The notes under the pieces were generated by a model. That model made no database searches, was not told where the DNA came from, and was given only the letters and a program-made list of their open reading frames with translations. Shown here in pieces: positions 20,587-33,794 of a stretch of 37,352 nt of DNA. This stretch comes from Chloroflexota bacterium. Lineage in GTDB: Bacteria > Chloroflexota > Anaerolineae > Anaerolineales > VGOW01. Each line of letters starts with the position of its first letter. Positions within the stretch are counted from its first letter, which is position 1. The stretch covers positions 1 to 37,352 of the forward strand of contig JACPWC010000054.1 of NCBI GenBank assembly GCA_016197225.1, written 5' to 3'. Made by a program: the position numbers and the translations under genes.

Positions 20587-20602
20587 AACTGGCAAGAGAA
20601 AT

Positions 20603-20632
20603 TTGACAAAGAACTTCAAGTTATGTCATAAT
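20603..20632 (+). promoter_or_regulatory. Sigma-70-like promoter facing the mobile element
   Basis: TTGACA (20603-20608), 18-base spacer, CATAAT (20627-20632). It points rightward, but no + strand gene follows; only the antisense of the serine recombinase lies ahead. It could be a remnant promoter from the pre-integration locus. Confidence 0.4.
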
Positions 20633-20685
20633 GCCCACATCTTCAGTCTGGTATTGCCAGACATCATTGATTGCCTTCGGGCCAG

Positions 20686-22158
20686 CTATCCTTCAGAAAG
20701 GATAGTTGCTTGTGGTACACCCTCAGCCCGCTCCACCAACTCCCCTTTTCTGACATAAATCTTCGGCAAGATTGCCAATAGCACGGGCCGCAATTCGTCA
20801 TCCGGTTTATTCAACCTGTCTTGGTTCGCCACAAATGCCAATATCCGCGCGCGCAACTCGGCAGGCTCAAGGGTCAGGGCTGGCGCCGGTTGACTGTGTT
20901 CGAGTTCTTGCACCTGATCGCGGATGTGGGCCAGTTCGCTAGTCAACGCCGCCCGCGCCGCCGCCGACTCAACCCCTTTTAGATCGCGCTCTATATCCCT
21001 CGCTTGTTCGCTTAGTCCCTCAATCGCCCGCGCCACGTGGGGGCTATGGGCAACCGGGGAAGGTGTTTCAATAGTCGCCAAATAATCATCTACCTGGGCC
21101 TCGCTAATGTCATTGTAAATCGCGTTGATCAGGTCTTTGAGTTTGTGCTCGCGGATAGTGTTCGCCGGGTGCCTCGGCACGCCAGAGCCAGCGCGAACAT
21201 GCGCCGTGCACCGATAATAGCGGGTGTCCGGCTCGCGTCTGTTGTGTATCACGTGGCTTGCCATTGGCCGCCCGCAATAGCCGCAGTGCAAAATTGTTGA
21301 GAATAGCCCCGTATTCATCGCGCGGGGGAAAGACTTAGCCACTAATGCCCGCCGCGCCAATTCTGACTCTATGCCGCGCGCCGTTTGGTCGTCAAACATG
21401 GGGGGCAAACTAGACACGACACGAATAGCCCCCGCTTGCTTGCTATTGAACTTCAGCGCCCCCCGGTAGGCCGTATTACGCATTAAGCCCCGAATGTAAC
21501 TCGCGCTCCTTACCCGGCTATCCGGCCAAGCAAAAGATTGTGCTATTCGTTCGTATGGCACGCCATTGATAAACAGCCGCGCCAATTCATACAGCAGTGC
21601 TTGACGGTCTTTATCTATCTCGTAGCCCGTCACCACGCCCGCCTCGCCTCGCACGGGAATATACCCCAGAGGGGCGTTAGAATGGGGCAAGCCGCGCTTC
21701 ACTCGGCCAAGATGCCCCATGCGAATACGATCTGCCCGCCGTTCATTCTCGGCTTTGGCCGCCCAAACTTTGATAGGGAAAGTATCCCGGTCAAATGTTC
21801 CTCGCGCCAGGCCAACCGCCAGCCGCGTTGACTCTAACACGTCTAACAAGTCAATCATCGGGCGATACCCACGACATAGCCGGTCTTCATTCCATGCGAG
21901 AAGTACGTCAAACTCCCCGCCCCTCGCCGCGTCAAGCATAGCCAGCCACGCGGGGCGGTCATGCCGCCAACCCGAGGGCGGGACTAGCCGCTTACCGCTC
22001 CGATAATTCTCAGCATCTACCCAAGTGGCTACCACCGTCAAGCCATTGCGGGCCGCGAGTTCGGTACAATCTCCAACTTGCGCCGTAATGCTATAACGGT
22101 CTGCCCCGTCTTGTTCCTCACTACTCACTCTGGCGTAAATCGCCGCTCGTTTCGTCAT
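20686..22158 (-). CDS. Large serine recombinase / site-specific integrase
   Basis: A 490-residue protein. The N-terminal resolvase domain begins AAIYARVSSEEQ with catalytic Ser12 and Arg10, and includes LLAWNEDRLCRG. A recombinase domain follows (about residues 170-280), then a zinc-ribbon segment beginning HCGYCGRPM with YYRCTAH, then a coiled coil near residues 385-435. The second half of the zinc site is less regular than usual (Cys/His mixture). These enzymes integrate or excise DNA at attP/attB through a Ser-DNA link. GGGAG precedes ATG 22158. It is the last gene of the element, and its end abuts the probable left boundary. Confidence 0.92.
   Translation of the reverse strand: MTKRAAIYARVSSEEQDGADRYSITAQVGDCTELAARNGLTVVATWVDAENYRSGKRLVPPSGWRHDRPAWLAMLDAARGGEFDVLLAWNEDRLCRGYRPMIDLLDVLESTRLAVGLARGTFDRDTFPIKVWAAKAENERRADRIRMGHLGRVKRGLPHSNAPLGYIPVRGEAGVVTGYEIDKDRQALLYELARLFINGVPYERIAQSFAWPDSRVRSASYIRGLMRNTAYRGALKFNSKQAGAIRVVSSLPPMFDDQTARGIESELARRALVAKSFPRAMNTGLFSTILHCGYCGRPMASHVIHNRREPDTRYYRCTAHVRAGSGVPRHPANTIREHKLKDLINAIYNDISEAQVDDYLATIETPSPVAHSPHVARAIEGLSEQARDIERDLKGVESAAARAALTSELAHIRDQVQELEHSQPAPALTLEPAELRARILAFVANQDRLNKPDDELRPVLLAILPKIYVRKGELVERAEGVPQATILSEG
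20690..20702. other. Candidate left att core
   Basis: CCTTCAGAAAGGA lies within the last codons of the serine recombinase and matches 33782-33794 except for one base. Serine integrases share only a short core between attL and attR, but this word is itself partly palindromic, so chance is possible. Confidence 0.3.
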
Positions 22159-22196
22159 GCCTGCTTCTCCCTTCGTTGTGAGCTATTCCGCTCGCC

Positions 22197-22247
22197 ACTG
22201 CCCACCACGCGCCGCCCGCTTGCGCGCCGCCCCGCGTGATGGGCAGT
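22197..22247. repeat. Long GC-rich hairpin upstream of the serine recombinase
   Basis: ACTGCCCA (22197-22204) pairs with 22240-22247 and CACGCG (22206-22211) with 22233-22238, one mismatch between. It is either a terminator without T-run for the gene at 22259 or a palindromic recognition site. Confidence 0.55.
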
Positions 22248-22258
22248 TCGCCAGATGA

Positions 22259-22489
22259 TTAGCTTTCACCTGCCAGCGCAAACCGCAAGCCCGCTGGGGT
22301 TGTCTCTGCCTTCGCAGTGGGCAGATAGATGACCAAGCCGGCCAGCGCGTCATCGCTCTTGCACTCCACTGACAGCCCGCTTTGCTGGCAATACCTCAGC
22401 GCCGATTGAAGCATGTCCAGTGCCTGGGCCGGGGTGATGGGTGTCGGCTTGCGCTTGCCCCCTGTTTCGCCTTGCTTTGTTGACTTCAT
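22259..22489 (-). CDS. Small hypothetical protein of the element
   Basis: 76 residues from ATG 22489, chosen because AAAGGAAGG lies 8 bases upstream; an earlier in-frame start lacks one. It has a Lys/Gly-rich N-terminus, then an amphipathic part (PAQALDMLQSALRYCQQSGLSVECKSDDALAGLVIYLP) like short accessory proteins of phages and plasmids. No family is recognised. Confidence 0.6.
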   Translation of the reverse strand: MKSTKQGETGGKRKPTPITPAQALDMLQSALRYCQQSGLSVECKSDDALAGLVIYLPTAKAETTPAGLRFALAGES

Positions 22490-22630
22490 ACTGTGCCTTC
22501 CTTTCGTTGCTGAGTAATCCAAACTTCCCGCCGTAAGCGCATAGCCGGCCCGCCTTGCTCCCTTTGCGCCATGTCCAATACTTGCCCCCGTGTGTGACTT
22601 CGATTCGCCACTCAGCGGGGGCGATAGTCG

Positions 22631-23413
22631 TTATTTTGGGACGATAACTTTCGGCGGCTTGTGTCCATTGCGACTCGGCTTCACGGTTGGCACTTCCTCA
22701 GCTTCGGCGTTGTAGTTCACCGTCGCCGCTGTTTGGCGGGCTGTGCCTGCCAGCGTGGGCCGTCCTTGCGGATGGGCAGGCCGCGCCGCTTCGCTCGCGC
22801 TTACGCTTCGCCGGGGCGCATTGCCTAAGGTCTCACCTACCAGCGCCCGCGCCGCTTCGTTGGCCGCCTCCTCTACCGCTTGCGTCACATCGGCCTGTTC
22901 CGTCGCCTTCTGAATTTGCGACAACAGCGCCGCATGAGTCGCCGCCTTCACGCTTTCCCTCATGTCACGCTCGCGGCTTGACGGGTCAAGTAGCCACAAC
23001 AGACTCCAACCCACCATACACAACAGGGGCAAGGCCGGCAGGATGTATATGCCGTAGTTGGTCAGGAAGCCCGGCAGGATTGTTTGACTGTGGCGGCCAG
23101 CGTCCAAGACGGCATTGAAGGCAATCAGGGTCAGGTCAAGCAGGTAGAAGGCAATCGCCGTCATGCGTTGCGCTCCCGGTTGTGTCCAGAAGTGAATCGC
23201 CAGAGGCAGGGCGATTGCAGTTAGCTCTAGGGCCACAATGCCGATAACGGCCAGGGGCAACAGCGCTGGGTCAATCGTGGCCGCAAAGAGGCTGTAGCTC
23301 CTCACGGCGGCATACACTAACCCGGCCAGGTAGACAATGAGGCTGAGGACGATTGCCAGCCCTTTGAGGGCGTGGTGTTGATTCTCTTGCATTGCTTTTG
23401 AGATGGTTGTCAT
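22631..23413 (-). CDS. Membrane protein with four predicted helices, function unknown
   Basis: 260 residues from ATG 23413 with GAAAGGAAC upstream. Four hydrophobic segments lie at about residues 17-38, 50-72, 83-100 and 113-145. A cytoplasmic-looking Ala/Glu/Gln helix follows (QKATEQADVTQAVEEAANEAARAL), then a basic Pro-rich tail ending KPPKVIVPK. It resembles in layout the small integral membrane proteins of plasmids and conjugative elements, but no motif identifies it. It is flanked by hypothetical genes. Confidence 0.65.
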   Translation of the reverse strand: MTTISKAMQENQHHALKGLAIVLSLIVYLAGLVYAAVRSYSLFAATIDPALLPLAVIGIVALELTAIALPLAIHFWTQPGAQRMTAIAFYLLDLTLIAFNAVLDAGRHSQTILPGFLTNYGIYILPALPLLCMVGWSLLWLLDPSSRERDMRESVKAATHAALLSQIQKATEQADVTQAVEEAANEAARALVGETLGNAPRRSVSASEAARPAHPQGRPTLAGTARQTAATVNYNAEAEEVPTVKPSRNGHKPPKVIVPK

Positions 23414-23443
23414 GGTTCAAAGTTCCTTTCGTGATGGATGTAG

Positions 23444-23527
23444 TAAAATCTTGGCATAGCGGGGCGCTTTTGCGAGTTCCCCTTGCTACTGCGAACGCTC
23501 GGCCCTATACCGGGCGTTCGCTCTTTA
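23444..23527 (+). ncRNA. Candidate short transcript opposite to the element genes (locus 1)
   Basis: TAAAAT (23444-23449) could be a -10 box. A small stem (GGGG-CGC with GCG-CCCC) follows, then a 12-bp stem (23491-23502 with 23510-23521) and TCTTTA. The U-tract is weak and no -35 is clear. The hairpin may instead end the - strand gene at 23525. Confidence 0.3.
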
Positions 23528-23833
23528 TGCGTCGCTCACTTCCACGCCGGGGAAGGCTTCGGCGTAGTTCACCTCATGCTCTGACAAGTTGCCTTCGTAC
23601 AGCGCGATTGCCTCTTCAAGCGTCACCGGGTCAAGGCTACTCCCCTCACCTTGCCACTGACTGAGGGTGACGGTGAAGTATGCGCCGTTGGGAGTGCGAT
23701 ACAAGAAGGTGTTGCGCCCGTGCCGCTCGAAGTTGTGGCCGTCCCAGTAGTCATCTCCGGCGATAAGAGTCGCGGTCTTCACGCTGTACCGCTTGCGGCC
23801 AATGATGCGAGTAAATTTTTCAGGTGGTTTCAT
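23525..23833 (-). CDS. Conserved hypothetical protein of mobile elements
   Basis: 102 residues from ATG 23833 with GAAAGGAG upstream. The N-terminal half (IIGRKRYSVKTATLIAGDDYWDGHNFERHGRNTF, described here in parts) has the look of a small beta-rich protein often seen in plasmids and prophages, with a WDG and an FERHGRNTFLYRT core. The C-terminal half is acidic and helical. No enzyme motif and no membrane segment. Function unknown. Confidence 0.7.
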   Translation of the reverse strand: MKPPEKFTRIIGRKRYSVKTATLIAGDDYWDGHNFERHGRNTFLYRTPNGAYFTVTLSQWQGEGSSLDPVTLEEAIALYEGNLSEHEVNYAEAFPGVEVSDA

Positions 23834-23938
23834 AAGTTGGTCTCCTTTCGGTCTGTGCCGATAGTGTCCCCGCGACGCTCTGGGCGGGGTTGGGCCTGTT
23901 GCCCATGTGATGATTGTTATCGGGGTGTTCGCTCCCCG

Positions 23939-24172
23939 CTATGCCGCATCTACTGATAGCCCCAACTCCACCCGCCGCCATTGCAACGTTGCCAGCATTT
24001 GCGCCGGGTCAAAGAGTGGCCCGGCCAGAAGCAGGCCGCCGCAATGTGGACACGCTCCTTGAAGTTCATTCGCCAGTGATACAGCGCCCTTGCATGACGG
24101 GCAGAGACGCCGACGGTCGTACAACTCGCGCGCCATGCGGTCTAGGTTCGCCTGTTGGGTTGGGGTCATCAT
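23939..24172 (-). CDS. Small zinc-ribbon protein
   Basis: 77 residues from ATG 24172 (a second ATG follows immediately) with GGAG upstream. The frame is open further upstream to 24355 but runs through a terminator hairpin, so that part is rejected. CPSC and CPHC, 18 residues apart, form a zinc ribbon; the rest is helical. It may be a regulator or an accessory replication protein; no family is recognised. Confidence 0.6.
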   Translation of the reverse strand: MMTPTQQANLDRMARELYDRRRLCPSCKGAVSLANELQGACPHCGGLLLAGPLFDPAQMLATLQWRRVELGLSVDAA

Positions 24173-24238
24173 GTCCGACTCCGTGGTGGGCGGGGTGTGC
24201 CGGTGTGTACGCACCGAACACCCCCCGGCCCATGAATC

Positions 24239-24279
24239 AAAAAACGGGCGGCCCGCCGTTGCTCTGGCAAGCCGCCCGT
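24239..24279 (-). terminator. Intrinsic terminator downstream of the xis-like gene
   Basis: On the - strand ACGGGCGGC (24279-24271) pairs with 24252-24244 and is followed by six T (24244-24239). Confidence 0.8.
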
Positions 24280-24285
24280 CTCTGG

Positions 24286-24320
24286 TAAAATCGGGTGAGC
24301 CTTGCCCGCCGCGTACACGG
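24286..24320 (+). promoter_or_regulatory. Extended -10 box on the + strand (locus 2)
   Basis: TGGTAAAAT (24283-24291) has the TGn extension of an extended -10. A GC hairpin (CCCGCCG with CGGTGGG, one G-U pair) follows near 24304-24323. No terminator is clear, so an RNA end is not assigned. Confidence 0.3.
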
Positions 24321-24373
24321 TGGGTGGGGTTAGGGGTCGTGAAGTGGTTGCACACTGCGCGGCCCCGCTTATA

Positions 24374-24410
24374 GGGTTATAAATCTTGTAACTAACAGGA
24401 TTATAAGCCC
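24374..24410. promoter_or_regulatory. Imperfect palindrome around TTATAA, operator candidate
   Basis: GGGTTATAAATCTTGT (24374-24389) is mirrored by ACAGGATTATAAGCCC (24395-24410) with a short spacer. It contains TATAAT-like boxes on the - strand and lies between the excisionase-like gene and the terminator. A related TATAAT/TTATAGG palindrome lies at 32417-32436. Confidence 0.4.
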
Positions 24411-24430
24411 ATCTCCTGAAAAGTCAAACC

Positions 24431-24628
24431 TTACTTTTTTCGCCCTCTTTTTGCTCCTAGTTTTTCAACCTTGCGAAGATAAGCCAGTAGACTCGCCCGG
24501 TCAACTTGCCAGACGATTCCAAACTTCCGTGCTTTGACCTTGCCCCCTCGTATCAATTCCCGCAAGTGTTCGGGATGATACCCGCTCAGTTCGGCGGCCT
24601 GTTTCGTCGTTATCCAAGTCTCTGCCAT
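24431..24628 (-). CDS. Excisionase-like HTH protein (HTH_17, MerR-type helix)
   Basis: 65 residues: TTKQAAELSGYHPEHLRELIRGGKVKARKFGIVWQVD reads as a single winged helix of the excisionase/HTH_17 family (the sentence gives it in motif form: TTKQAAELSG, then HLRELIRGGKV, then a WQVD wing), followed by a basic tail KRGRKK. Such proteins bend DNA at att sites and direct recombinase toward excision, or act as small regulators. With two recombinases in the element it could serve either. Confidence 0.85.
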   Translation of the reverse strand: MAETWITTKQAAELSGYHPEHLRELIRGGKVKARKFGIVWQVDRASLLAYLRKVEKLGAKRGRKK

Positions 24629-24681
24629 AGATGACTCCCGCCGCCGCTTCTCCCCGATTGACAGCCGTGTTACAATATGGG

Positions 24682-24777
24682 TGAGAAGTGTGACAGCCGC
24701 AAACGTCCCGTATAGGTCGGATTCCCTCTAACAAGAGGGATTAGGTTTGTCCCCCCCTAATCAAGGGGGCTTCTCGT
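24682..24777 (+). ncRNA. Candidate structured small RNA (locus 3)
   Basis: An extended -10 TGTTACAAT (24668-24676) precedes a region with CCCTCT-AACA-AGAGGG (near 24724-24739) and CCCCCT-AATCA-AGGGGG (near 24752-24768), two hairpins of the same design. GAGAAG (24683-24688) could pair with CTTCTC near 24769-24774 to close the whole, followed by GTTTA. It fills the gap between the xis-like and DUF3800 genes on the opposite strand. Confidence 0.4.
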
Positions 24778-25347
24778 TTAACGCCCCAAGTCCCTGATAA
24801 TCCCCTGTTCAAGCGCCGCGTCAAACAAGGCTTTCATCTCCGCCCGCCCTTCGTGGGCCTCTCTCACAAATCCGCAAACCGCATCGGCCAGCCGGATCAG
24901 GGCGTCATTCTCTTCACGCCTCACCCCGCGCACCTTTTCCACCTTTGCCCCCCAGCGCCGTATTCGGCGGCTGTAGTCTTGCCATTGCTCTTTAGGCAAA
25001 GCGTCTACGACAATCACGTTATGGCTCTCATTGCCGGTTTGCTTCACAGCCAGGGCAATAGTTTGAGTTGTGAGGCTGTCGTAATCCCGGCTATCGGCGT
25101 GCCGGGCAAACGTCAATCGCCCGGCAAACAATGGCTTCTGCAACGCCAACCGGATATAGACCAAACGCCGGTCAGGAGTCGTCCGCATCCATTTTCGCCT
25201 GCCCCGCCGCGATTGTTTCTCAATCTCTTCGCAAGCCTTACGCCAGTCTTCAAGGTATTGCCCGGCTACGACTACCGCCACGATGAACAATTGGCCCTTT
25301 GTGTCTTGGCCGGTTTCGTCAACGTAGTAGTATCGCTTGTTGGACAT
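24778..25347 (-). CDS. DUF3800 protein (RNase H-like fold)
   Basis: 189 residues. It begins with the family hallmark YYYVDETGQD (acidic Asp10-Glu11) and ends with IRLADAVCGFVREAHEG, whose Asp completes the acidic site; NVIVVDAL in the middle gives another. DUF3800 proteins are predicted RNase H-fold nucleases common on phages, plasmids and defence islands; their substrates are mostly unknown. Full length for the family. No partner toxin or helicase is next to it. Confidence 0.85.
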   Translation of the reverse strand: MSNKRYYYVDETGQDTKGQLFIVAVVVAGQYLEDWRKACEEIEKQSRRGRRKWMRTTPDRRLVYIRLALQKPLFAGRLTFARHADSRDYDSLTTQTIALAVKQTGNESHNVIVVDALPKEQWQDYSRRIRRWGAKVEKVRGVRREENDALIRLADAVCGFVREAHEGRAEMKALFDAALEQGIIRDLGR

Positions 25348-25420
25348 GCGCCGTATTCTAACCCATCGCCGCGCTCGCGCAACTTCCGCGCCCGCTATTC
25401 TGTTGGTAAGGTTCTAAGTG

Positions 25421-25759
25421 CTATCCGGGTAGCAGTTCCAATCCATTGAGCTTGTCAGTGATTTCCTCAAAGTGTGCCTTTAGCGCAGGCGACAAATCAG
25501 CGTAAGCCGCTTCGCATCTATCAACCAACTCTTGGGGCATTCGCGCCTTTAGCGCCTCAAATGTCTCTTTGTCGCCCGGCTGGGGTTCGCCCAGCCCGCC
25601 CCGCCGAAGTCCAGCCGCCCGGCCACATGCGGCCAACTCTGTCTGAGTGGTGTTGGCGGCAACCCACTGAGCAAGGGCTGTCACCGCCGCTTCAATCTCG
25701 GCCACAAGTCGCGCTTTGAGTTCGGCCTCTGCATTGTCAAGCCGCGTTTGTAGACTCAT
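25421..25759 (-). CDS. Coiled-coil hypothetical protein
   Basis: 112 residues from ATG 25759 with GGAG 9 bases upstream; the start overlaps the previous gene by 23 bases, which points to coupling. N-terminal helix MSLQTRLDNAEAELKARL with heptad look, then a Gly/Pro turn and two acidic helices. No family recognised. Probably part of the same transcript as the two upstream replication genes. Confidence 0.6.
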   Translation of the reverse strand: MSLQTRLDNAEAELKARLVAEIEAAVTALAQWVAANTTQTELAACGRAAGLRRGGLGEPQPGDKETFEALKARMPQELVDRCEAAYADLSPALKAHFEEITDKLNGLELLPG

Positions 25760-26135
25760 TTTTTGCATCTCCAATCTTCAACGCGGCTTCAATGGCCGCG
25801 AGTCGCTCCTCTAGCTCGCCAGTCTTTATCGCCTCAACGAAGGCGTGAGCAATGCCGACAATCAACCGCCCGCGTTGCACTGAATTTTCAAGCGGCATGG
25901 CCTCGGCCAGGGCGTAATCCAGTACCGCCAACACATCGTCAAGCGTTCGCACTTTTGGCGGTAACGTTGCCGGGTCGGTTGCGCCATGTGGCGTTCGGTG
26001 ACGTTCACCGCCGCGCTTGCGGCCCTCGGCCCGCGCTCTACCATGCGCCGGGGAGTGGAAAGTACAGTACCCATCCGGCCCGGCTTTGGTTGTGCATCGT
26101 TGCCCATCCTTTTTGATTGCTTTGCAATGCTTCAT
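25737..26135 (-). CDS. Small CxxH zinc-binding protein of mobile elements
   Basis: 132 residues from ATG 26135, with AAGGAC upstream; the longer frame to 26201 has no better site. The N-terminus CKAIKKDGQRC, then AGPDGYCTFH, forms a C-x9-C-x10-C-x2-H metal site typical of short proteins on phages and plasmids. A basic linker (GRARAEGRKRGGERH) and a helical C-terminal half follow. It starts 8 bases after the stop of the PriCT-like gene. Function unknown. Confidence 0.7.
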   Translation of the reverse strand: MKHCKAIKKDGQRCTTKAGPDGYCTFHSPAHGRARAEGRKRGGERHRTPHGATDPATLPPKVRTLDDVLAVLDYALAEAMPLENSVQRGRLIVGIAHAFVEAIKTGELEERLAAIEAALKIGDAKNESTNAA

Positions 26136-26601
26136 AACGTCCTTAGCTCTGGTAAGTTTGGCTTTGCTCGTTACCGCCAATTGGCGGTAAGGCCGTTGCA
26201 ATCATTGGCGGTAACTCCGGCAGTGGCCCAAACTTCGCCGCCCATTGCCGCCAATCTTCGGCCTCGGCCAGCGGCCAGCCGTCACCGTAACGATGCTCAC
26301 GAATAGCCGCCGCCGCGAGTGCCTGGGCCAGGGCGGGCCACTGCGAACGGTCAATCGGATCAGGTTGCGACGTGAGCTTGTCGAATAGCGACTCGCCTGC
26401 GTTAGTCCCGCCTTGCGGGATTGCCGCCAAAGTCAGGCGATTACCATCACGGGCCGTTACCACCAAACCGCGCTCGGCAATCAGGGCGGATGTAATCGGC
26501 GCATCGGCGGTAACGATTGGCGGTAATCCGCCCTGGGGGTCGAATGGATTACCAGCAAACGGATCGCCGGTGTCATCGTCGGGCGTGGGCATTGGCGATA
26601 A
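25923..26601. repeat. Cluster of TTGGCGGTAA repeats, including a 20-bp perfect palindrome
   Basis: The 10-mer TTGGCGGTAA (either strand) occurs exactly at 25955-25964, 26171-26180 (reverse), 26181-26190, 26205-26214 and 26517-26526. One-mismatch copies lie at 26245-26254, 26421-26430, 26504-26513 and 26592-26601, and a 9-base copy at 25923-25931. The copies at 26171-26190 are head to head and make a perfect palindrome. They lie inside two genes and use the codons TTA CCG CCA, so a rare-type Leu codon is repeated, which argues for a DNA-level signal such as initiator or repressor binding. Confidence 0.7.
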
Positions 26602-26955
26602 TGCGCCATGCCGCGCCGGTTGGGGCGGGGCAAACTGCGTGATAGCTCGCGGGGGTTGAAACGTCCGACTCTTGCGCTTGCTGAAGTTGCGCCCCTCGAC
26701 TCGCTTGCCAAACTCGCTCGTCGTCATCTTTTCAGCGTCGGCCAGTTTGTGGGCCAGTTCTTTTTCAGTCCAGGCCGGTTTACAACGGTTGGCGTTGTAC
26801 CAGCGCATGGCGTCCAACGCCTCGGCGGTGGATAGGCCAAAGCGGAAGCACTCACACGCGGCCCGGAGAGTCGCGTCATGGCCGCCGCTCCCGCTGATCG
26901 CCGGAGGGAGTTTTTCGAGATAGGCCATAGCACGGGATAGGTTAGATTGCGCCAT
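26143..26955 (-). CDS. Replication protein with PriCT-like domain
   Basis: 270 residues from ATG 26955 (AAAGGG upstream); a GTG at 27000 is an alternative. Residues 10-80 read RAMAYLEKLPPAISGSGG, then HDATLRAACECFRFGLS, then WTEKELAHKLADAEK, the pattern of the C-terminal helical domain next to primases (PriCT type) that helps primase-helicase or plasmid/phage primases. The middle is Pro-rich and disordered, the C-terminus has two short helical parts. It lacks its own catalytic motifs, so it probably works with the prim-pol/ATPase upstream. Confidence 0.7.
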   Translation of the reverse strand: MAQSNLSRAMAYLEKLPPAISGSGGHDATLRAACECFRFGLSTAEALDAMRWYNANRCKPAWTEKELAHKLADAEKMTTSEFGKRVEGRNFSKRKSRTFQPPRAITQFAPPQPARHGALSPMPTPDDDTGDPFAGNPFDPQGGLPPIVTADAPITSALIAERGLVVTARDGNRLTLAAIPQGGTNAGESLFDKLTSQPDPIDRSQWPALAQALAAAAIREHRYGDGWPLAEAEDWRQWAAKFGPLPELPPMIATALPPIGGNEQSQTYQS

Positions 26956-26971
26956 AGGTTTTGCCCTTTCG

Positions 26972-27103
26972 ACTGTTTCCCGAGGGTAAGCCACTTTCAC
27001 TATGACCGCTTCCCGTTTCGACTGTTTCCCCCTTAAGGGGGGGGAAACGGGAAACAGTCAAAATAACTGCTTCCGGGAAACAGTGGGAAACACGGGAAAC
27101 AGT
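26972..27103. repeat. Iteron-like array of GGGAAACAGT, candidate replication origin
   Basis: Exact copies on the + strand at 27049-27058, 27075-27084 and 27094-27103, and in reverse at 26972-26981 and 27021-27030. Partial copies GGGAAACGGG (27042-27051) and GGGAAACACG (27085-27094) interleave. The array fills the gap between the prim-pol gene and the PriCT-like gene. Directly repeated sites next to initiator genes are the form of iteron origins. Confidence 0.65.
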
Positions 27104-27105
27104 CA

Positions 27106-28959
27106 CTATTCCCCCCCCTTTGGCAAGCTAAAAAGGTGGCTCCCGCGTGGCCCGTCGCTCATGTATACCTGCCCGGCTAAAAGCATCTCGGATAGCACGG
27201 CGTCAAACGTTTGGCGTCTCACTCCGGCAAGGTTGGCGAGGGCATTTTTACTCAAAGGCTTGTCACTGCCCGCGAGGGCCGCTTTGATTTTGGCGATAGT
27301 CTCATCTTTGGCCGCCGCCTTCACGTCGGTAACATCCGCCGCCCAAAACCGCGCCGTAACTAATTCGTGATTGGCGTCATCCTCATAGGCAAACTTTGCC
27401 GCGATGGGCTTCACGCTCGCGCCGCGTTCTTTCGTCGGAGTGAGGGTGACGATCAGATCGTCACGCTTTGCCAGCAGAATCAGATCGGCCTTTGCTTCGA
27501 TGCCACTAAACCCGCGCAAAGTTTCGCCTTGCCGCTTATCGCCCATCGGCCCAGCCTTGCGCTCGTGATGGATCACAATCACCGCCGCGCCCGTTGTCTC
27601 TGACAGCCAACGGAGGCCCGCCATTGGCACTTTCATATCATCAGAGTTCTGATTAGCATCGCCGGATACTTCGGTGAGGTTGTCAATGATGACGAGTCGC
27701 ACGCCCAACGATTGCACGCGCCCGGCCAAGTCTTGCATATCTTGAGTATTGCCGGCGTCAAGCCATGTTTCGGGCATTGAGACATAGTAAACCGGCACAG
27801 ACTCCGGCAGTTCCCTTGCACGGGCCAGGGCCGCGAAACGCTCATGAGTCCGTCTTTGCCCATTGTCGAAGTCGAGCCACAGCACCGCGCCCTGTGTAGT
27901 GGCAATGCCCGTGCCGGGTTGGTTGGGTCGGGGTAGAAAGGATTTACCCGCCGCCACGCTCACAGCTAAATCAGCCAATTCCATGCTCTTGAGTGTGCCA
28001 GGCGCGCCGTAAACAATGTTCAAAGTGCCTTCGCCAATGACGCCGTCTAAAATCATTTTGACGGGCGGGCGGGGCGTGTACGCATCGGCCAGGGTGAAAA
28101 TTTGCCAGGGGTCTACAGGCTGATCAGCTTGGGCGATCAACTCGGCAATGATGGGTGGGAGTGAGGGCGGGGCGATGGTCAATTGCGATTCGTCTGCCCA
28201 TTGGTAGGGCGGCCCCTCGGGATGGTCAGGATGAACTGAAGGCGGTAAGACGATATAGCCGCCGTCGCTTTTTGTGTCCACCTTAGCACCCAGCGCGTCG
28301 TTTTTGCTTTTGCAATTGCCCTGATAAATCAGGTGACAGCCCGGCCCTGTCCATTGACCATCTTCAATCTTGCCGGGGGTGATGGACGTAAGAGGGCTTT
28401 CAACTATGCCATGCTCGGCCTTCAGTCGCTCCCACGTTGCGCGGCCTTCGTCACCGTCGGGGTCAATGACGGCCAGCCCCGACAGGCCACAAGCCAGCCC
28501 GATATTTGCAGTGGGCCAGTGTGTCCACCACTGGCGAATCTTCGCCGGGTCAGTTGTGGCGTCTTTGAAGCCGTGAGTCGTGATGGGGTCTTTCGTCTTT
28601 GGCCGAAGGGGGAACACATGCCAGCCCATCGCCGCATAGCGCAAGGCCCACGCCAAAAACGAGTCACCCGCCGGGCGTAGCTTCGCGCGTTCGGTGTCCA
28701 CTTCGCGCCGAATCAAATCGGCGTGAGATTCGCTTGTCAGAAGACGGTCAAGCGTTTGGGCCGCGTTGCCGTTAGCGCGTGAAAGTTCATCGGCGTAAAA
28801 GTGCCAGTTGACGGGAGTCGAGTCGAGCGAGGCAATCTCAGCCGGTGAGACTGGCAACCTAAGCAGTTGCCGGGCAATGATGTTCGCGCCGGTGGGCCGC
28901 GTGTTCACTGCGGGCATATCGTCGGGGACTTCGGGAGGAGGCGGGTTGTATACTTTCAA
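27106..28959 (-). CDS. Prim-pol (primase-polymerase) fused to RecA-type ATPase
   Basis: 617 residues if it starts at TTG 28959, which overlaps the upstream stop (TTGA) and has GAGGTG before it; ATG 28917 is a second choice. After about 90 residues a prim-pol domain begins (AWALRYAAMGWHVFPL), with Asp166-x-Asp168 in VIDPDGD and a His in GCHLIYQG as the AEP active-site set. Then a RecA/AAA_25 ATPase: Walker A GAPGTLKS at 318-325, Walker B LVIIDNL, and a sensor-like VIVIHHE. A C-terminal winged helix follows. The pairing of primer synthesis and helicase-type ATPase is usual for replication proteins of plasmids and satellites. Confidence 0.9.
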   Translation of the reverse strand: MKVYNPPPPEVPDDMPAVNTRPTGANIIARQLLRLPVSPAEIASLDSTPVNWHFYADELSRANGNAAQTLDRLLTSESHADLIRREVDTERAKLRPAGDSFLAWALRYAAMGWHVFPLRPKTKDPITTHGFKDATTDPAKIRQWWTHWPTANIGLACGLSGLAVIDPDGDEGRATWERLKAEHGIVESPLTSITPGKIEDGQWTGPGCHLIYQGNCKSKNDALGAKVDTKSDGGYIVLPPSVHPDHPEGPPYQWADESQLTIAPPSLPPIIAELIAQADQPVDPWQIFTLADAYTPRPPVKMILDGVIGEGTLNIVYGAPGTLKSMELADLAVSVAAGKSFLPRPNQPGTGIATTQGAVLWLDFDNGQRRTHERFAALARARELPESVPVYYVSMPETWLDAGNTQDMQDLAGRVQSLGVRLVIIDNLTEVSGDANQNSDDMKVPMAGLRWLSETTGAAVIVIHHERKAGPMGDKRQGETLRGFSGIEAKADLILLAKRDDLIVTLTPTKERGASVKPIAAKFAYEDDANHELVTARFWAADVTDVKAAAKDETIAKIKAALAGSDKPLSKNALANLAGVRRQTFDAVLSEMLLAGQVYMSDGPRGSHLFSLPKGGE

Positions 28960-29126
28960 CGCCCCACCTCTCGGAGAATTGCGCGGGCGATTCGTTGAGT
29001 AAGATACCGAAACAAGCGCCGGTGACGTTTGCGCCGCTCCTGATTCGGATCGGACTCGGCCAGCGCCGCCGCTCGCTCGGCGAGGGCGGCCAGGTGTTGC
29101 CATGTTGTCGAGGGCGCGTTATTCAT
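28956..29126 (-). CDS. Very small basic protein
   Basis: 56 residues from ATG 29126, which overlaps the upstream stop (ATGAATAA). Helical, with an acidic middle and a strongly basic part (ERRKRHRRLFRY) toward the end; could bind nucleic acid. Its stop overlaps the TTG start of the prim-pol gene, so the genes are coupled. No family recognised. Confidence 0.55.
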   Translation of the reverse strand: MNNAPSTTWQHLAALAERAAALAESDPNQERRKRHRRLFRYLTQRIARAILREVGR

Positions 29127-29310
29127 GGGCCGCCTCCGGGCTTTTTTCAGCCTCAGCCCGGCCAGCGTCGGCAGTGGGCGAGGGCAGGCGCGCAGGAACA
29201 CCCTGGGCCAGCGCAAACCGATAAGCAACCGCGAGAAGCGCATGAACTAGCCGCTCGCGTTCGGGGTCGGGCGGGCATGTGAGAGGAGCAGGATTAAGCG
29301 GCTTGGACAT
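29119..29310 (-). CDS. Very small hypothetical protein
   Basis: 63 residues from ATG 29310, overlapping the end of the upstream gene by 17 bases and its own downstream gene by 8. A Pro-rich start, one helix (RLVHALLAVAYRFALAQG), and an Ala/Glu-rich tail. The dense overlaps support a real reading frame. Function unknown. Confidence 0.5.
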   Translation of the reverse strand: MSKPLNPAPLTCPPDPERERLVHALLAVAYRFALAQGVPARLPSPTADAGRAEAEKSPEAAHE

Positions 29311-29500
29311 TCGCGGCCTCCGCCGGTTCGCCCTCGGCCTGCTTCGCTTTCGAGTCGGCGGGCAAGAGGCCGCGCCGTTCTAGCTCTTGCCGCAAAATAT
29401 GACGCACTTCGTCAGCAGGGCCGCGCAACTCTAAGGCGGCCAGCTTTCCAAGCGCGTCATACTCAGTCAGTGACAAAAAAAGCTTCATCCGGGTCAGCAT
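29294..29500 (-). CDS. Small helical protein, possible regulator
   Basis: 68 residues from ATG 29500 (ATG 29503 just before is equally possible; GGAGG lies directly upstream). It contains LTEYDALGKLAALELRGPADEVRHILRQELERRGLL, given here only as a description: a short strand and two helices, similar in shape to small ribbon-helix-helix-like or Arc-type accessory proteins. First gene after a terminator hairpin, at the head of the replication genes. Confidence 0.55.
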   Translation of the reverse strand: MLTRMKLFLSLTEYDALGKLAALELRGPADEVRHILRQELERRGLLPADSKAKQAEGEPAEAANVQAA

Positions 29501-29516
29501 CATTCCTCCGCGAATC

Positions 29517-29552
29517 AAAAAAGGGACTGCATTTCTTTTGCAGTCCCTTTTT
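29517..29552 (-). terminator. Strong intrinsic terminator
   Basis: A 13-bp perfect stem (29518-29530 with 29540-29552) with T-runs on both sides, so it can work in both directions. On the - strand it ends the 439-aa gene. It lies only 14-17 bases before the start of the next gene. Confidence 0.85.
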
Positions 29553-29601
29553 ATCAGAAAAACTCTCACGTAGGCAATCTCACGAGTCTAACGACTTTTT
29601 C

Positions 29602-30921
29602 TCACGTCTTACGTTTCATTATTTTGAGATTGCGTCTTGTCGGCATGCGGTAATTACGTCGCCATTCAGAAAAAAGGTTGTCCACTCTTCCCGGTTGGAG
29701 ATGCACTTTGGGCGCAATGTCTGGCGTAGTGTGTTCGTCAAAATACATATCAACCATCGTTTGATATTCAGTACATCCGGCAATCCTCGGCTTGGCTTTC
29801 AGATTGTCGCGCACGAACTCCCATTCCTTGAGTTTCGGCTGTGTTGATTTTGTGTTGCTCTTCGGCTTTACTTTTCCGCCATTGCCTTCAATGGTGGCAG
29901 ATGCCTCGTCTGTGCATTTCCAAATCTCTCTACAGCGCGCAAAAAAAGCGTCAACGAACGGCTTGGGGTCATATGAAAATGCAGTGAGGTGATAAGAAGA
30001 CAGGAATGCTTTTACTGAGAGGGGGTACTTGCCGCCCACATAGTGCCCGTGAAACTCAACTAAGGTCAGGCCCATCTTCATTGTGGGATTATCAATTTTG
30101 CCAACACGGGCTAGAAACATCAGCGCCCATACTTTACCCACAACTGGCTTAGGTACAATTGCCGCAAACGGATCACTGGTTACATTTATTCTTGACACAT
30201 AGTCTTGTGGCAGGTATTTATCGTTATATTTATCAATAAACGTTCGCAGTTCATTCTCAAAGCCTTGTTCATCTGTGTCAAGATACAGAGTAAGCGTTTG
30301 TAAATTCGTTTGTCCATTTTCACCCGTGCCGGTCGCCGTCTGTTGCTCTGTGCTTGAAAGGGGCAGAGTAATCTCTTTTGACTGAATAAGCCGCCCGTTG
30401 TCGAGTCTGGTAACAGAGCCGCTCGTGGGCGTGTCAATGATAGTTTCCCCGCTATGCTCCCACGCCACACTCGCACCGCTCGCCGTCGGTTGCTCTACCC
30501 ATAGTCTTTTTTCTTTCAGCGTTTGTACCAAATCCGCTTTCGCGTTCTCGTACGTATCAGCCAAATTGCGATGGTCAGCAATCCTGCTTGTCCACCCGGC
30601 GATGACTTTCTGCCTCTCCTCTTCGGTTGTGTATTGCTTGCCTGGGCTGTCTTTGAAAATCCCCTCTTTCTCGGCCATTTGTTCAGGGGTCATCAAGTCG
30701 TATTCTTGTTTTTCGCGCGCGATGATGACAAACTCAGTAGAAACATCATCGCGCTTGCTGAGTCTGACCTGTCCCATGTGATTGTAATGCAGGGAGTAGA
30801 CCACACTTGCAGGTGTGGGGGTGTGCCGCTCATAGAGAAAGAAGTTTTGACGGTGGAAACTGTCAAAGAAGTCAACAATTGCGGCGTCTAAAACATCAAT
30901 TGGTTTGAATAATAATGTCAT
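29602..30921 (-). CDS. Unrecognised 439-residue protein of the element
   Basis: 439 residues from ATG 30921 with GGAG 8 bases upstream; an earlier in-frame start at 30966 lies inside a terminator. No signal peptide or membrane segment. N-terminal part (to about 90) has FFDSFHRQNFFLYERH and repeated beta-type segments; the middle is helical and charged; a Thr/Ser-rich stretch surrounds residue 200; the C-terminal 100 residues are basic and end KIMKRKT. No known catalytic motif is visible. The gene looks more A+T rich than its neighbours and is closed off by terminators on both sides, so it is an independent cargo unit. Defence or another accessory role is only a guess from its place. Confidence 0.75.
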   Translation of the reverse strand: MTLLFKPIDVLDAAIVDFFDSFHRQNFFLYERHTPTPASVVYSLHYNHMGQVRLSKRDDVSTEFVIIAREKQEYDLMTPEQMAEKEGIFKDSPGKQYTTEEERQKVIAGWTSRIADHRNLADTYENAKADLVQTLKEKRLWVEQPTASGASVAWEHSGETIIDTPTSGSVTRLDNGRLIQSKEITLPLSSTEQQTATGTGENGQTNLQTLTLYLDTDEQGFENELRTFIDKYNDKYLPQDYVSRINVTSDPFAAIVPKPVVGKVWALMFLARVGKIDNPTMKMGLTLVEFHGHYVGGKYPLSVKAFLSSYHLTAFSYDPKPFVDAFFARCREIWKCTDEASATIEGNGGKVKPKSNTKSTQPKLKEWEFVRDNLKAKPRIAGCTEYQTMVDMYFDEHTTPDIAPKVHLQPGRVDNLFSEWRRNYRMPTRRNLKIMKRKT

Positions 30922-30938
30922 CCTGCACACTCCAAAAC

Positions 30939-30973
30939 AAAAAAGCCGCCCGCGCCCATCGCGCAAGCGGCTT
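30939..30973 (-). terminator. Terminator behind the tyrosine recombinase
   Basis: On the - strand AAGCCGC (30973-30967) pairs with GCGGCTT (30949-30943), followed by T-run 30944-30939. It lies 18 bases before the start of the 439-residue gene. Confidence 0.7.
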
Positions 30974-30984
30974 GTGCATCATGC

Positions 30985-31060
30985 TATACTTTGCACTGCC
31001 AGCCGCTTGCATCGGCTCGGCCATGCCCCGCGATGTATCAGCATCGGCGGGGCGTTTTTA
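30985..31060 (+). ncRNA. Candidate small RNA between the tyrosine recombinase and the 439-aa gene (locus 4)
   Basis: Extended -10 TGCTATACT (30982-30990). Downstream are a small hairpin AGCCG-CGGCT (about 31001-31017) and a strong + strand terminator: GCCCCGC-GATG (31025-31035) with CATC-G-GCGGGGC (31042-31053), then GTTTTTATT. The T-run is on the + strand only, so it ends a rightward RNA, not the recombinase gene. Confidence 0.55.
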
Positions 31061-31071
31061 TTCTAACAGAC

Positions 31072-32055
31072 TCAGCGCATCCCGCCGCCGCTCCCGTTGT
31101 ACTGTATGTACTCCTCAGCCGGATTCTCTACCCGGTCGGTTTCGTGGTAGTAAATCATCGTCGTTGAGATATTAGCGTGCCGGGCCATCGCCTGCACCTT
31201 TTGCACGGGCGCGCCGCGCTTCACTGCCGTTGTGATCGCCGTGTGGCGTAGGCTGTGGGTTGTCTTATTCTTGCCCACCACGCCCGCCGCCTTGTATGCC
31301 GCCTTCACAATGCCACGAATGGCCCGCAAGGATAGCCGCTCATCTCGCGCCCGGTTGGAAAGCGAAGTAAACAGCGGCCCCCCTGCCGGGTCATTGCCTC
31401 TGGCAGATAGCCAATCGTGCAAGGCCGCCTCAGCGTCGGGGTGAGCTATCACAATCAATTCATCGGCCTCAGCCCGCCCCTTGCCCGTCACGGCCAGCAC
31501 CAGCCGCCCGCCTTCGGTTCGCACGTCGCCCACGTCGGCGCGATGCACTTCCACACTACGCGCCCCGGTGTAGGCCATGAGGTGAAGCATAGCCGCGTCA
31601 CGCTTGCCCGCCGGGGTGTCACGGTCAGGGGCGGCCAGCACCCGCAGTACCTCAGCATCGGTCAGGGCGGCCCGCTTGTGGGCCTTGCTCGTGCCGGTTC
31701 GCTTTGCGCCCTTCACGCTCGCCGCCGGGTTGTGAATCAATCGCCGCGCCCCCACAGCCCACGCAAAGAAGGCCCGCACTCCAGCCAGCCAGGTATTCAC
31801 CGCGCCCGGCTTGTGGCCTTCGGAGAGTAGGGCCGCCTTCCACTCGCGGATCGCTTCATCGGTGACGGTCGTTCGCCGCTCGGCCCATGTGATGAATTTT
31901 CCCATGCCGCGCTTATACGTCTCTGCCGACGTGGGCGACAATTCGCCCGCGCTTACCTGTAGGTCAAGGGCCGCGTGCCACTCGCCCACGAGGGCGAGAA
32001 TATCAGCATCCTGGGTGACGGCTTTGGGTTGGGTGACGGTTAGACTCTTGCTCAT
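31072..32055 (-). CDS. Tyrosine recombinase (phage integrase family)
   Basis: 327 residues. N-terminal SAM-like core-binding domain (about 20-125), then a catalytic domain with Arg166 (TGARSVE), Lys in GKGR, His267-x2-Arg270 (HSLRH), His293 (ARHANISTT) and nucleophile Tyr302 (MIYYHE). All residues of an active enzyme are present. XerC/D-like length without the arm-binding domain of lambda-type integrases. It cuts and rejoins DNA through a Tyr-DNA link; with the serine recombinase the element has two unrelated systems. Confidence 0.93.
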   Translation of the reverse strand: MSKSLTVTQPKAVTQDADILALVGEWHAALDLQVSAGELSPTSAETYKRGMGKFITWAERRTTVTDEAIREWKAALLSEGHKPGAVNTWLAGVRAFFAWAVGARRLIHNPAASVKGAKRTGTSKAHKRAALTDAEVLRVLAAPDRDTPAGKRDAAMLHLMAYTGARSVEVHRADVGDVRTEGGRLVLAVTGKGRAEADELIVIAHPDAEAALHDWLSARGNDPAGGPLFTSLSNRARDERLSLRAIRGIVKAAYKAAGVVGKNKTTHSLRHTAITTAVKRGAPVQKVQAMARHANISTTMIYYHETDRVENPAEEYIQYNGSGGGMR

Positions 32056-32078
32056 GGTTATCTCTCTGAAAGAGTGAA

Positions 32079-32111
32079 GGGCGGCTATCCGGTCATGCTG
32101 GACAGCCGCCC
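32079..32111 (-). terminator. Terminator-like hairpin after the SWIM-type gene
   Basis: GGGCGGCT-A-TCC (32079-32090) pairs with GGA-C-AGCCGCCC (32100-32111). On the - strand TTCACTCTTT follows, a weak U-tract. Confidence 0.5.
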
Positions 32112-32118
32112 CGACTTG

Positions 32119-32334
32119 TTAGAACTTCCGGCCTTGCGCCCTCCGCTCGGCTTGCACGGCCTCCACGTGGTCACAGCCGCCGTAAAGGGTGAAGCTATGG
32201 CACTTGCACTCATACGCGCCCTTCACGCTCACCGTGACGCGATGATTACCGCGCTTGTCGGCAACGGTGTAAATGACTTCGGCGGGTTGTACTTTGATTG
32301 CTTGGTTGAAGGTGGTAGTATTCTGAGTGTTCAT
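32119..32334 (-). CDS. Small SWIM-type zinc-finger protein
   Basis: 71 residues from ATG 32334, picked for GGGAGGT 7 bases upstream. The end reads YECKCHSFTLYGGCDHVEAV, a C-x-C-xn-C-x-H SWIM motif; the first half is a short beta region. SWIM fingers bind DNA or proteins. It sits directly before the tyrosine recombinase, perhaps as an accessory factor. Confidence 0.7.
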   Translation of the reverse strand: MNTQNTTTFNQAIKVQPAEVIYTVADKRGNHRVTVSVKGAYECKCHSFTLYGGCDHVEAVQAERRAQGRKF

Positions 32335-32416
32335 TGTGACCTCCCGTGTCACTTTGAGCGTTGCGGGTTGGGTGTTACAGCACTCAGCCCGCTCTTGATT
32401 CATCGTCTCTGTATTG

Positions 32417-32436
32417 CCTATAATCAATCTTATAGG
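32417..32436. promoter_or_regulatory. Palindrome CCTATAA / TTATAGG, operator candidate
   Basis: Perfect 7-bp arms with a 6-base spacer, 83 bases before the SWIM-type gene. Similar TTATAGG words occur near 24369-24376 in the leader region of the xis-like gene. Confidence 0.4.
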
Positions 32437-32505
32437 ATTTAGCCCCAAAAGTCAAGGGGCATTTTCCCGCCCGAAGTCCAACGCCCCGGCCAGCAAAGAT
32501 ACAAA

Positions 32506-32529
32506 AGGCAGTGGACTATGCCACTGCCT
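32506..32529 (-). terminator. Terminator of the secreted-protein gene (repeat copy A)
   Basis: AGGCAGTGG (32506-32514) pairs perfectly with CCACTGCCT (32521-32529). On the - strand the hairpin is followed by TTTTG. A near copy lies at 33553-33577. Confidence 0.7.
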
Positions 32530-32605
32530 GATAATGCGCCTCGAAAACTGGCCTGCCAACAAAAACGGAAGCGGGACGAAGCAGATTACAGCGAGTATAG
32601 CGCGT

Positions 32606-33406
32606 CTACTTCGTTGTGACCTCTATGCTCCATTCCCCTTCCGCTTGAATCTCTAATATCAAAAAATCACTTCTAGGCAAAATCTGCGTTCCCTCATACG
32701 GATCAGTCGTATTGACCAACGAATCTCTTCCACTGTCGCTCCATGCCCGTACCCCAAAATACCGCGCTCCTGCATTGCCCTTTATCTTCGCTAGGTCGGG
32801 TACACCGCCCTCGACCAAGATTACGTCATCCCCTTTGCCGTTGAACACACCCGGCGCTGTTAGCACCCTCATAGAGGCCAGCGGCAAAATCTCAATTGTC
32901 CAGTCTCCCGTTGCAGTCACTTCAAACCGCGTTGTTGCTTGCCCGTCCCGAAAGTCTAGTGGCCGCACACCGTCGTATGGGTCTGTTGTGTTAACGAGCA
33001 AGTCAATAGAGTCTCCCGACTCATTGTAGTTCTTTACTGCAAAAAAATGCGCGCCCGCATTGCCTGTAATGTGTACAATCGCCGCTCCAAATGGGTTGAC
33101 GGCATCCACAATCGAATCGCCGTTCCCGCTCAATACAATTGGCTCTGGCGTGTTAGTGGGAATCGGCGTCTCGGTCGGTGGGTCGGTTGGTCTGGGCGTA
33201 TTGGTAGGGGGAGGGGTATCGGTTGGGGCCACTTCTGTGAGGGCCGCCTGGGTTGCGACCGCAGACTCGACTTGTTCCACTTGTGCCACTTGGGGCGTTG
33301 AAGTTCCTTTTGGCCTCGTGGCTACGGTTGCCACCAGACAAATGCAAGTGCCAACAATGCCCACTAACACGACAATCAAGATATTCCGCAAGCGATTGTT
33401 TTTCAT
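32606..33406 (-). CDS. Anchored extracytoplasmic protein with two copies of a beta domain
   Basis: 266 residues. An N-terminal transmembrane/signal segment (RNILIVVLVGIVGTCICLVATVA) precedes a TPxPTxTP linker (about residues 60-88). Two homologous domains of about 85 residues follow, each with a G-x-GD start, GNAGAHFF/GNAGARYF, LVNTTDPY and a closing EGEW or TGDW-IEI/IEV. The layout is of a surface-exposed protein of Chloroflexota type; ligand unknown. The gene lies outside the recombinase genes but still inside the probable element, flanked by two copies of a small terminator repeat. Confidence 0.75.
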   Translation of the reverse strand: MKNNRLRNILIVVLVGIVGTCICLVATVATRPKGTSTPQVAQVEQVESAVATQAALTEVAPTDTPPPTNTPRPTDPPTETPIPTNTPEPIVLSGNGDSIVDAVNPFGAAIVHITGNAGAHFFAVKNYNESGDSIDLLVNTTDPYDGVRPLDFRDGQATTRFEVTATGDWTIEILPLASMRVLTAPGVFNGKGDDVILVEGGVPDLAKIKGNAGARYFGVRAWSDSGRDSLVNTTDPYEGTQILPRSDFLILEIQAEGEWSIEVTTK

Positions 33407-33720
33407 CTTCTATCCCTCCGCGACAAAGTTTGTGTTACGCCCGATATTAGCATAATACGGCCTCACTTGTTTATAGGCAAATGTCACGAGTTTGACAGGT
33501 CTAGCGCCCCGGCCCGCGTGGGCAAGGCCAGGGCGGGCAGTGGCAAACAAAAAGGCAGTGACTTTGCTTCACTGCCTCTGAAAACGTCTCTGGGCCGCTC
33601 CTGGGCACGCCTACGCCTCGACAGCCACGCGGCCCGGTTCGGTTATCCTATTGGCCCGCCCGCCTGACAAGCTACACTCACGCGCCCGAGGAGAAGTGGC
33701 AAATATCCTGCTTGCGCCCC
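33407..33720. other. Gene-poor stretch with repeat copy B
   Basis: No supported gene. A CGCCCCGGCC word (33505-33514) and a hairpin AGGCAGTGA...TCACTGCCT (33553-33577) repeat the arrangement found at 32482-32529. On the - strand the hairpin is followed by TTTTTG. The 66-residue + frame here (33467-33667) has no start signal and is not called. Confidence 0.5.
33553..33577 (-). terminator. Terminator-like repeat copy B
   Basis: 9-bp perfect stem (33553-33561 with 33569-33577), then TTTTT on the - strand. No gene is known just upstream on that strand, so it may be a relic of a duplicated unit. Confidence 0.55.
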
Positions 33721-33739: not shown

Positions 33740-33781
33740 TCTGCCCATTCTTCGGGGGGATTTTTTATCACAATAGGCAAT

Positions 33782-33794
33782 CCTTTAGAAAGGA
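33782..33794. other. Candidate right att core
   Basis: CCTTTAGAAAGGA, one base different from 20690-20702. It overlaps the Shine-Dalgarno sequence of the 15-codon frame. Confidence 0.3.

Follow-up and report, generated by a model that had tools for sequence, protein, structure and literature searches.

In SaPI/PICI elements, which are small and integrated, short iterons lie directly 3' of the gene for an initiator helicase, to which a primase may be fused (PMC6092414, PMC7581432). The C-terminal domain of the helicase reads these iterons, an arrangement for which SaPI Rep and SCCmec Cch2 are the precedents: SaPI Reps are of the DUF927 or D5/Primase_C kind and act with a long AT-rich region, and the isolated C-terminal domain of Cch2, a D5-related 3'-5' helicase, binds three 5-nt iterons right after its gene, in a system with dedicated primase activity in a separate polymerase-primase (PMC7581432). 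ORF904 of the archaeal plasmid pRN1 joins Prim-Pol, SF3 helicase and winged helix in one protein, and a required, fast-changing inverted-repeat origin, a 100-nt stem-loop free of iterons, lies 3' of its gene (PMC4234260). The P4 alpha protein likewise unites origin binding (by a winged helix), unwinding and priming, the last by a bacterial Toprim-type primase (PMC4234260), and in RSF1010 these tasks are divided among RepA, RepB' and RepC at oriV, with the helicase RepA working alongside a separate origin binder, RepC (PMC4234260, PMC8965321). PrimQH proteins combine a primase, a RepA-type or other ATPase and a C-terminal WH, which their authors suggest might recognise an origin; in the available text of that paper no origin is identified and the word 'iteron' is absent (PMC5862659). 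Our searches of open-licence papers brought up no account of an iteron origin lying downstream of the gene for a RepA-type helicase.

The stretch of DNA analysed here (the window) is a whole contig of 37,352 bases (C54) from a 4.81-Mb, 98% complete Chloroflexota genome. It contains an array of short repeats whose first site lies 2 nt after the stop codon of a helicase-primase gene and whose far end lies 16 nt before the start codon of a gene of 270 amino acids (Table 1). Prior annotation of the sequence (the original prediction) had placed the array between a prim-pol gene and a PriCT-like gene. The former identification was borne out, the gene encoding AAA_25 in addition to Prim-Pol; the latter was not confirmed, since at E 0.01 the 270-aa product matched no family in Pfam, PHROG or NCBIfam.

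Table 1. Features of the array, its flanking genes and the element that carries them (positions in the window).
Feature	Position	Strand	Remarks
Large serine recombinase	20686..22158	-	3' end abuts attL
Left attachment core ATCCTTCAGAAAGGA	20688..20702	+	sequence repeat
Excisionase-like small DNA-binding protein	24431..24628	-	TIGR01764 E 3.3e-6; phrog_66 E 4.4e-5
Gene after array, 270 aa	26143..26955	-	also in L002
Iteron array (putative origin)	26972..27103	.	nine ACTGTTTCCC/GGGAAACAGT sites, 10-base word, 132 bases
Exact GGGAAACAGT sites	26972-26981(-), 27021-27030(-), 27049-27058(+), 27075-27084(+), 27094-27103(+)		
Two-mismatch sites in array	27085-27094, 27066-27075, 27042-27051, 27005-27014		
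Palindrome GTTTCCCCC-TTAA-GGGGGGGGAAAC (C5-TTAA-G5)	27024..27048	.	inside array
Prim-Pol / RepA-like (AAA_25) helicase / winged-helix protein, putative initiator	27106..29103	-	665 aa with putative start codon
C-terminal winged-helix domain, about residues 591-659	27127..27333	-	AlphaFold2 model
Predicted recognition helix, about residues 630-642	27178-27216	-	in winged helix
AAA_25 RepA-type helicase domain, residues 339-518	27550..28089	-	PF13481 E 4.2e-34
Prim-Pol domain, residues 153-312	28168..28647	-	PF09250 E 3.7e-44
Right attachment core ATCCTTTAGAAAGGA	33780..33794	+	sequence repeat

The array is specific to its spot in the genome and far above chance. Five exact 10-mers in 132 bases, in both orientations, had been predicted and are present; the predicted total of seven copies had to be revised, since four two-mismatch sites stand where two partial ones had been counted, giving nine in all. 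Counted against shuffled sequence, as had been proposed, the 10-mer matches nine times in the window with at most one mismatch, versus a mean of 2.03 and a largest count of 5 in 100 shuffles. The array holds nine sites in 159 nt (up to three mismatches allowed), where 690 other stretches of that length in the window average 1.0 and never exceed 4, and five of the seven exact copies in the 4.81-Mb genome lie within it. Taken in the reading direction of the helicase-primase gene, the sites run > > > < (27094, 27085, 27075, 27066), > > (27049, 27042), the palindrome, which the original prediction had not mentioned, and < < < (27021, 27005, 26972). CAAAATA (27059-27065) and the GC palindrome with its TTAA centre part two sets of sites, and no long AT-rich stretch was found within the array.

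An AlphaFold2 model of the helicase and winged helix had a mean pLDDT of 89.8. The closest solved structure to the helicase is RSF1010 RepA, itself a replicative helicase (Z 23.6, 2.6 Å over 219 residues), which its sequence profile also matched (E 3.3e-14); by sequence and predicted fold, then, it belongs to the RSF1010 RepA type and is presumably a hexamer. The winged helix gave weak matches to MecI/BlaI sequences (E 0.014-0.022) and, over residues 615-641, to HTH_Crp_2, the latter below its cut-off. Modelled alone, it matched generic winged helices only, with a best Foldseek E of 7e-3 and a best structural match of Z 10.8 (3.7 Å over 72 residues). Because these matches are generic, we claim no closer family for it; the P4 alpha origin-binding domain was not among its listed structure matches, which excludes nothing.

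Comparison with the described systems places this locus beside several of them. Like SaPI/PICI, the window has short iterons directly 3' of a gene for a primase-fused putative initiator helicase in a small integrated element, and its predicted winged helix would correspond to the C-terminal domain that reads SaPI iterons. The two differ in that the window helicase is of the RepA/RecA type (AAA_25) and in that two sets of sites enclose a C5-TTAA-G5 palindrome in place of a long AT-rich region. The array's position and its recurrence in relatives (below) put the putative origin immediately 3' of the initiator gene, as in SaPI/PICI; we nevertheless do not assign the element to that group because its helicase class differs. 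The original prediction of a plasmid origin is supported as to the origin, 'plasmid' being somewhat narrow for a layout of the SaPI/PICI type. SCCmec Cch2 shares the downstream iterons and the primase activity, with another helicase class and its primase on a separate protein, and pRN1 ORF904 shares the order of domains, with an SF3 helicase and a stem-loop in place of AAA_25/RepA and iterons. P4 alpha unites its three functions in one protein; the corresponding domains are present in the window protein, whose primase is Prim-Pol rather than Toprim. The P4 helicase class also differs from that of the window, and the P4 iteron decamer GGTGAACAGT resembles the window word GGGAAACAGT. RSF1010 has the same helicase fold in one of three separate proteins, unlike the single fused protein of the window with its own winged helix, and its iterons are 20 bp long as opposed to the 10-bp sites found here; no RepC-like family match was obtained among the element ORFs scanned.

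Do related helicase genes carry such arrays? As a shared motif, the exact 10-mer of the window was rejected: among the 36 loci fetched first, it is absent from all except the window's own. A search for local repeats that fixed no motif revealed that most relatives carry their own array in this position, composed of a different word in nearly every case: AATCCCAC (L007), AGTTTCC (L008), CGTTTGGCA (L010 and L011; also given as CCGTTTGGCA for L010), TTGTCCTT (L020), AGTTGTGAA (L021), CAGTTTGG (L038) and GCGTGACA (L066). The original prediction named as its weak point a loss of the array where both flanking genes are kept, and the opposite was found. Of 203 loci, the only relative found to keep both genes is L002, whose module is shared by three viral contigs; at the same spot it has an array of CTGGTATCA, and its second gene is 66% identical to the window's over residues 7-102.

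To quantify this recurrence, we reduced the 203 loci to 187 matched helicase ORFs, 180 with a usable 3' end (closed, at least 150 nt after the stop, at most 60 N), 107 genes differing in their last 80 residues and, finally, 88 left at <85% identity; these include the window's own gene (as L035), and outside them fall L045, with a masked stretch, and L059, with 106 nt after the stop. A significant array (at least three copies, with at most 2 of 200 shuffles as good; the exact statistic) was present within 220 nt 3' of the stop in 62 of the 88 non-redundant genes, namely 34 of 42 closer (profile E <1e-60), 26 of 39 middle and 2 of 7 weakest relatives, and absent by this statistic from the remaining 26. 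By the same measure, arrays occurred in 4 of 76 upstream stretches and at 9 of 400 randomly drawn ends of other ORFs. A mismatch-tolerant statistic gave arrays in 34/42 closer and 26/46 other genes and at 2/120 randomly drawn ORF ends as controls, the controls being judged at 0/50 shuffles and the genes at up to 1/100; under it the median distance from the stop to the first site is 9 nt. By either statistic, 38 of the 42 closer genes have an array; the four that do not are L051, L058, L091 and L201, and L051 has repeats some 130-450 nt beyond its stop. Distant phage relatives are frequently devoid of arrays. Across the 55 loci of at least 5 kb, the place of the array ranks first among repeat clusters on its own in 29, shares the first rank in 12 and comes behind another cluster in 14.

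Many relatives also have CCCCC-TTTAA-GGGGG, CTATAG or a similar palindrome centre at this place, and palindrome scores of at least 11 were reached by 20/42 closer genes, 5/46 more distant ones and 7/300 control ORF ends. Of the 44 arrays that have five sites or more, 12 follow the orientation order 'at least two >, then <, >, <', chosen post hoc after the arrays had been viewed, against 4.7 expected on shuffled orientations (p 0.001); the window array follows it if its two-mismatch sites are counted, and not otherwise.

One viral contig (IMGVR_UViG_3300029202_000233) encodes two related helicases (L049 and L050), each followed by its own array, with a similar TTTTAGTTTT-like word shared between them. 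Genomes G247 (L006, L038) and G235 (L008, L199) have two modules apiece, apparently with different words within each genome, the arrays of L006 and L199 being significant in the tolerant statistic only. In L037, the array seems to restart about 225 nt further on (TTAGTTTTCTAGCTTTCCGAGTTTTCTGG, from 2463), resembling a duplicated origin.

The genes around the array vary. Pfam AAA_25 is found in 29/29 aligned members of the helicase family; N-terminal to it stands Prim-Pol in the window, and elsewhere DnaB-N (L006, L038, L057, L058), PriCT-2 (L010), NrS-1 HBD (L019, L021), Toprim (L066) or a part with no match (L037, L092). The 270-aa gene follows in the window and L002, and other loci have a zinc-finger-primase-like, primase-like, HNH-like or unknown protein there, as read by eye. 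Because both the N-terminal domain and the next gene vary, it is the helicase with its C-terminal domain that the array accompanies; Prim-Pol as the partner of the array was rejected, for relatives without it keep the array.

We then compared the similarity of array words with that of the proteins, in two groups selected by name. The first took in 21 of the 34 closer positives, those resembling alignments A2/A3; the second, forming one viral group, took in 18 of the other 28. With helicase similarity held constant, words covary with the winged helix among both the closer genes (r 0.32, p 0.003, n=21) and the more distant viral group (r 0.44, p <0.0002, n=18), and the helicase given the winged helix adds nothing (p 0.88 and p 0.33, respectively); such partial Mantel p-values tend to come out too small. 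Helicase similarity alone also correlates with the words in the viral group (r 0.47, p 0.0002), and across all 62 arrays both partial correlations are significant, that of the helicase (0.21) exceeding that of the winged helix (0.15). Co-transfer by linkage could mimic covariation, because the end of the gene that encodes the winged helix adjoins the array. Together, these comparisons point to the winged helix as the part that reads the word, with the pooled 62 arrays not singling it out.

Among nine named phage and plasmid records, an array 3' of the gene is clear in three. The closed circular plasmid III of Ca. Promineifilum breve (Chloroflexota; 40,759 bases; L009) has four copies of GACCTGTA, with 0/200 shuffles as good; its incomplete gene table names no replication genes besides those for PriCT-2 and AAA proteins, and its pentapeptide-repeat gene is more repetitive than its array. 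Plasmid III may be a phage-plasmid or excised prophage, because capsid and terminase genes are present. Its module recurs in G067, a genome of the same class as the window genome, where 300 bases around the gene end are identical. In Rhizobium phage RHph_N65 the gene is followed by 12 copies of GCGGAGAT, and in Roseobacter phage CRP-821 by seven copies of TGTATAAA, with like palindromes CCCCTATATAGGGG and AAACCCTTTAGGGTTT, respectively. Microbacterium phage Saratos is borderline (three copies, 2/200 shuffles, inside the next gene), and Gordonia phage Upyo, Mycobacterium phage KayaCho, Caulobacter phage RW and ctyzp037 have no array after the gene. The same is true of Caldicellulosiruptor bescii plasmid pATHE01 (L218, 8.3 kb), whose strongest repeat cluster lies inside its AAA (RepA-like) gene, 270-440 nt before the gene end. 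At 6391-6555 of pATHE01 are nine AGAGTGAA sites, six at exact 9-nt spacing and some inverted; this cluster may be an origin within the gene or else a repeat of the coding sequence.

In the window, the array lies within an integrated element of 13.1 kb (about 20688-33779) with a serine integrase. In a genome of the same genus (G399), the ROK and LysM genes adjoin without an element between them, and a single related att copy, ATCCTTATGAAAGGA, stands between the two; alignment to G399 ends at window position 20475 and resumes at 33777. We place the left end of the element by the att repeat because 20516-20687 are unaligned to this relative. The integrase, the att repeats and a relative's unoccupied site together mark it as an integrative element, and the repeats, the empty site and the excisionase-like protein (whose TIGR01764 match, at 27.4 bits, is slightly below the cut-off of 28.8) suggest that it is excisable. 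No tRNA was found in the window. On the right-hand chromosomal flank, the att core runs on as AAAGGAGGAGGTGGTGT (33780-33803), which is kept in the same-genus empty site and may be a ribosome-binding-site-like leader used as an integration target.

Among the element ORFs scanned (8 with Pfam, 18 with PHROGs and 10 with NCBIfam, very small ORFs being left out), none matched a capsid or terminase. The element encodes a second, internal tyrosine recombinase (31072-32055) beside the serine recombinase and, upstream of the helicase-primase on the same strand, a 454-aa ORF (29602-30966) that likewise matches nothing in these three databases at E 0.01. A second repeat cluster, of the word TTGGCGGTAA, occupies 25922-26601, in the 3' half of the 270-aa gene and just past its end: five exact copies lie in 25955-26526, of 13 genome-wide, and with one mismatch allowed there are 11 sites in 680 nt, in both orientations, including a perfect palindrome, TTACCGCCAATTGGCGGTAA, at 26171-26190. 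No 9-mer cluster as strong was seen after the array of L002.

We consider the array to be very probably the replication origin of this small mobile element, and the protein that binds it to be probably the helicase-primase itself. The fuller mechanism that we regard as likely is as follows: the C-terminal winged helix of the Prim-Pol/RepA-like helicase would bind the ACTGTTTCCC sites, which on both sides point at the C5-TTAA-G5 palindrome; the palindrome would open or extrude; the hexameric RepA-type helicase would load there as a ring; and the fused Prim-Pol domain would prime synthesis, to be extended by the host replisome. Replication would follow excision, as the original prediction held, which fits the att repeats, the same-genus empty site and the presence of a relative on a closed circular plasmid. 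Placed at the 3' end of the gene for its initiator, an origin would keep site and protein together, and each lineage would have changed its word along with its winged helix, preventing cross-reaction of related elements; word diversity may in this way keep co-resident elements apart.

The array might instead be an origin whose sites are bound by another protein, either the 270-aa product or a host factor, which then recruits the helicase. This is how RepC acts in RSF1010, the source of the closest structure to our helicase; the 270-aa gene, however, is kept in only one relative found (L002), the C-terminal domain aligns in most of 30 members and the words covary with it, which makes a separate binder unlikely. 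A role as an operator, through which the winged helix or another regulator controls the next gene or operon, would suit an array placed between two genes of the same direction and so near the second start codon, and winged helices of the MecI/MarR kind, weakly matched here, are mostly repressors. Nonetheless, nine sites over 132 nt in both orientations exceed an operator's needs, the array is kept while the next gene differs in most relatives, and no sigma-70-like promoter was found in 26000-29600, versus 1.2 expected; we therefore hold this role to be quite improbable.

The inverted repeats might also be a transcription terminator, or an RNA element that closes the helicase mRNA: the single strand, folded as DNA, is more stable than its shuffles (z -5.3), and there is one terminator-like match at 27066-27084. 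Yet such sites are no more frequent than chance in 26000-29600 (3 versus 4.2 expected), the strong palindrome is followed by no T run, no Rfam match reached the gathering score in the window, and a terminator has no need for repeated copies of an element-specific word, so that we find this explanation scarcely credible. A partition (centromere-like) site is very unlikely: the winged-helix model, generic in its fold, does resemble the plasmid segregation protein TubR (rank 8, E 0.014), but the element ORFs scanned include no ParA/TubZ family match and the neighbour of the array is a helicase-primase. Replication from the array, initiated by the helicase-primase, remains our preferred reading.

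More broadly, elements and phages with RepA-type helicases may share a previously undescribed class of origin, a stereotyped cassette behind the helicase gene, with a word that the helicase's own winged helix determines, a proposition that we regard as evenly balanced. The array and helicase-primase supply an origin and an initiator that can be put to the test for integrative elements and phages whose hosts are hard-to-culture Chloroflexota or other bacteria, as with the Rhizobium and Roseobacter phages; to our knowledge, the replication of these elements and phages has not been studied so far. The known rule that an initiator helicase reads iterons behind its own gene would be extended from SF3/D5-type to RepA-type helicases. 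If the proposition is true, origins and the compatibility of elements with one another would be readable from sequence alone, and the many independent pairs of word and protein would constitute a natural recognition code, for which dozens of paired winged helices and words provide the material, as they do for orthogonal mini-replicons.
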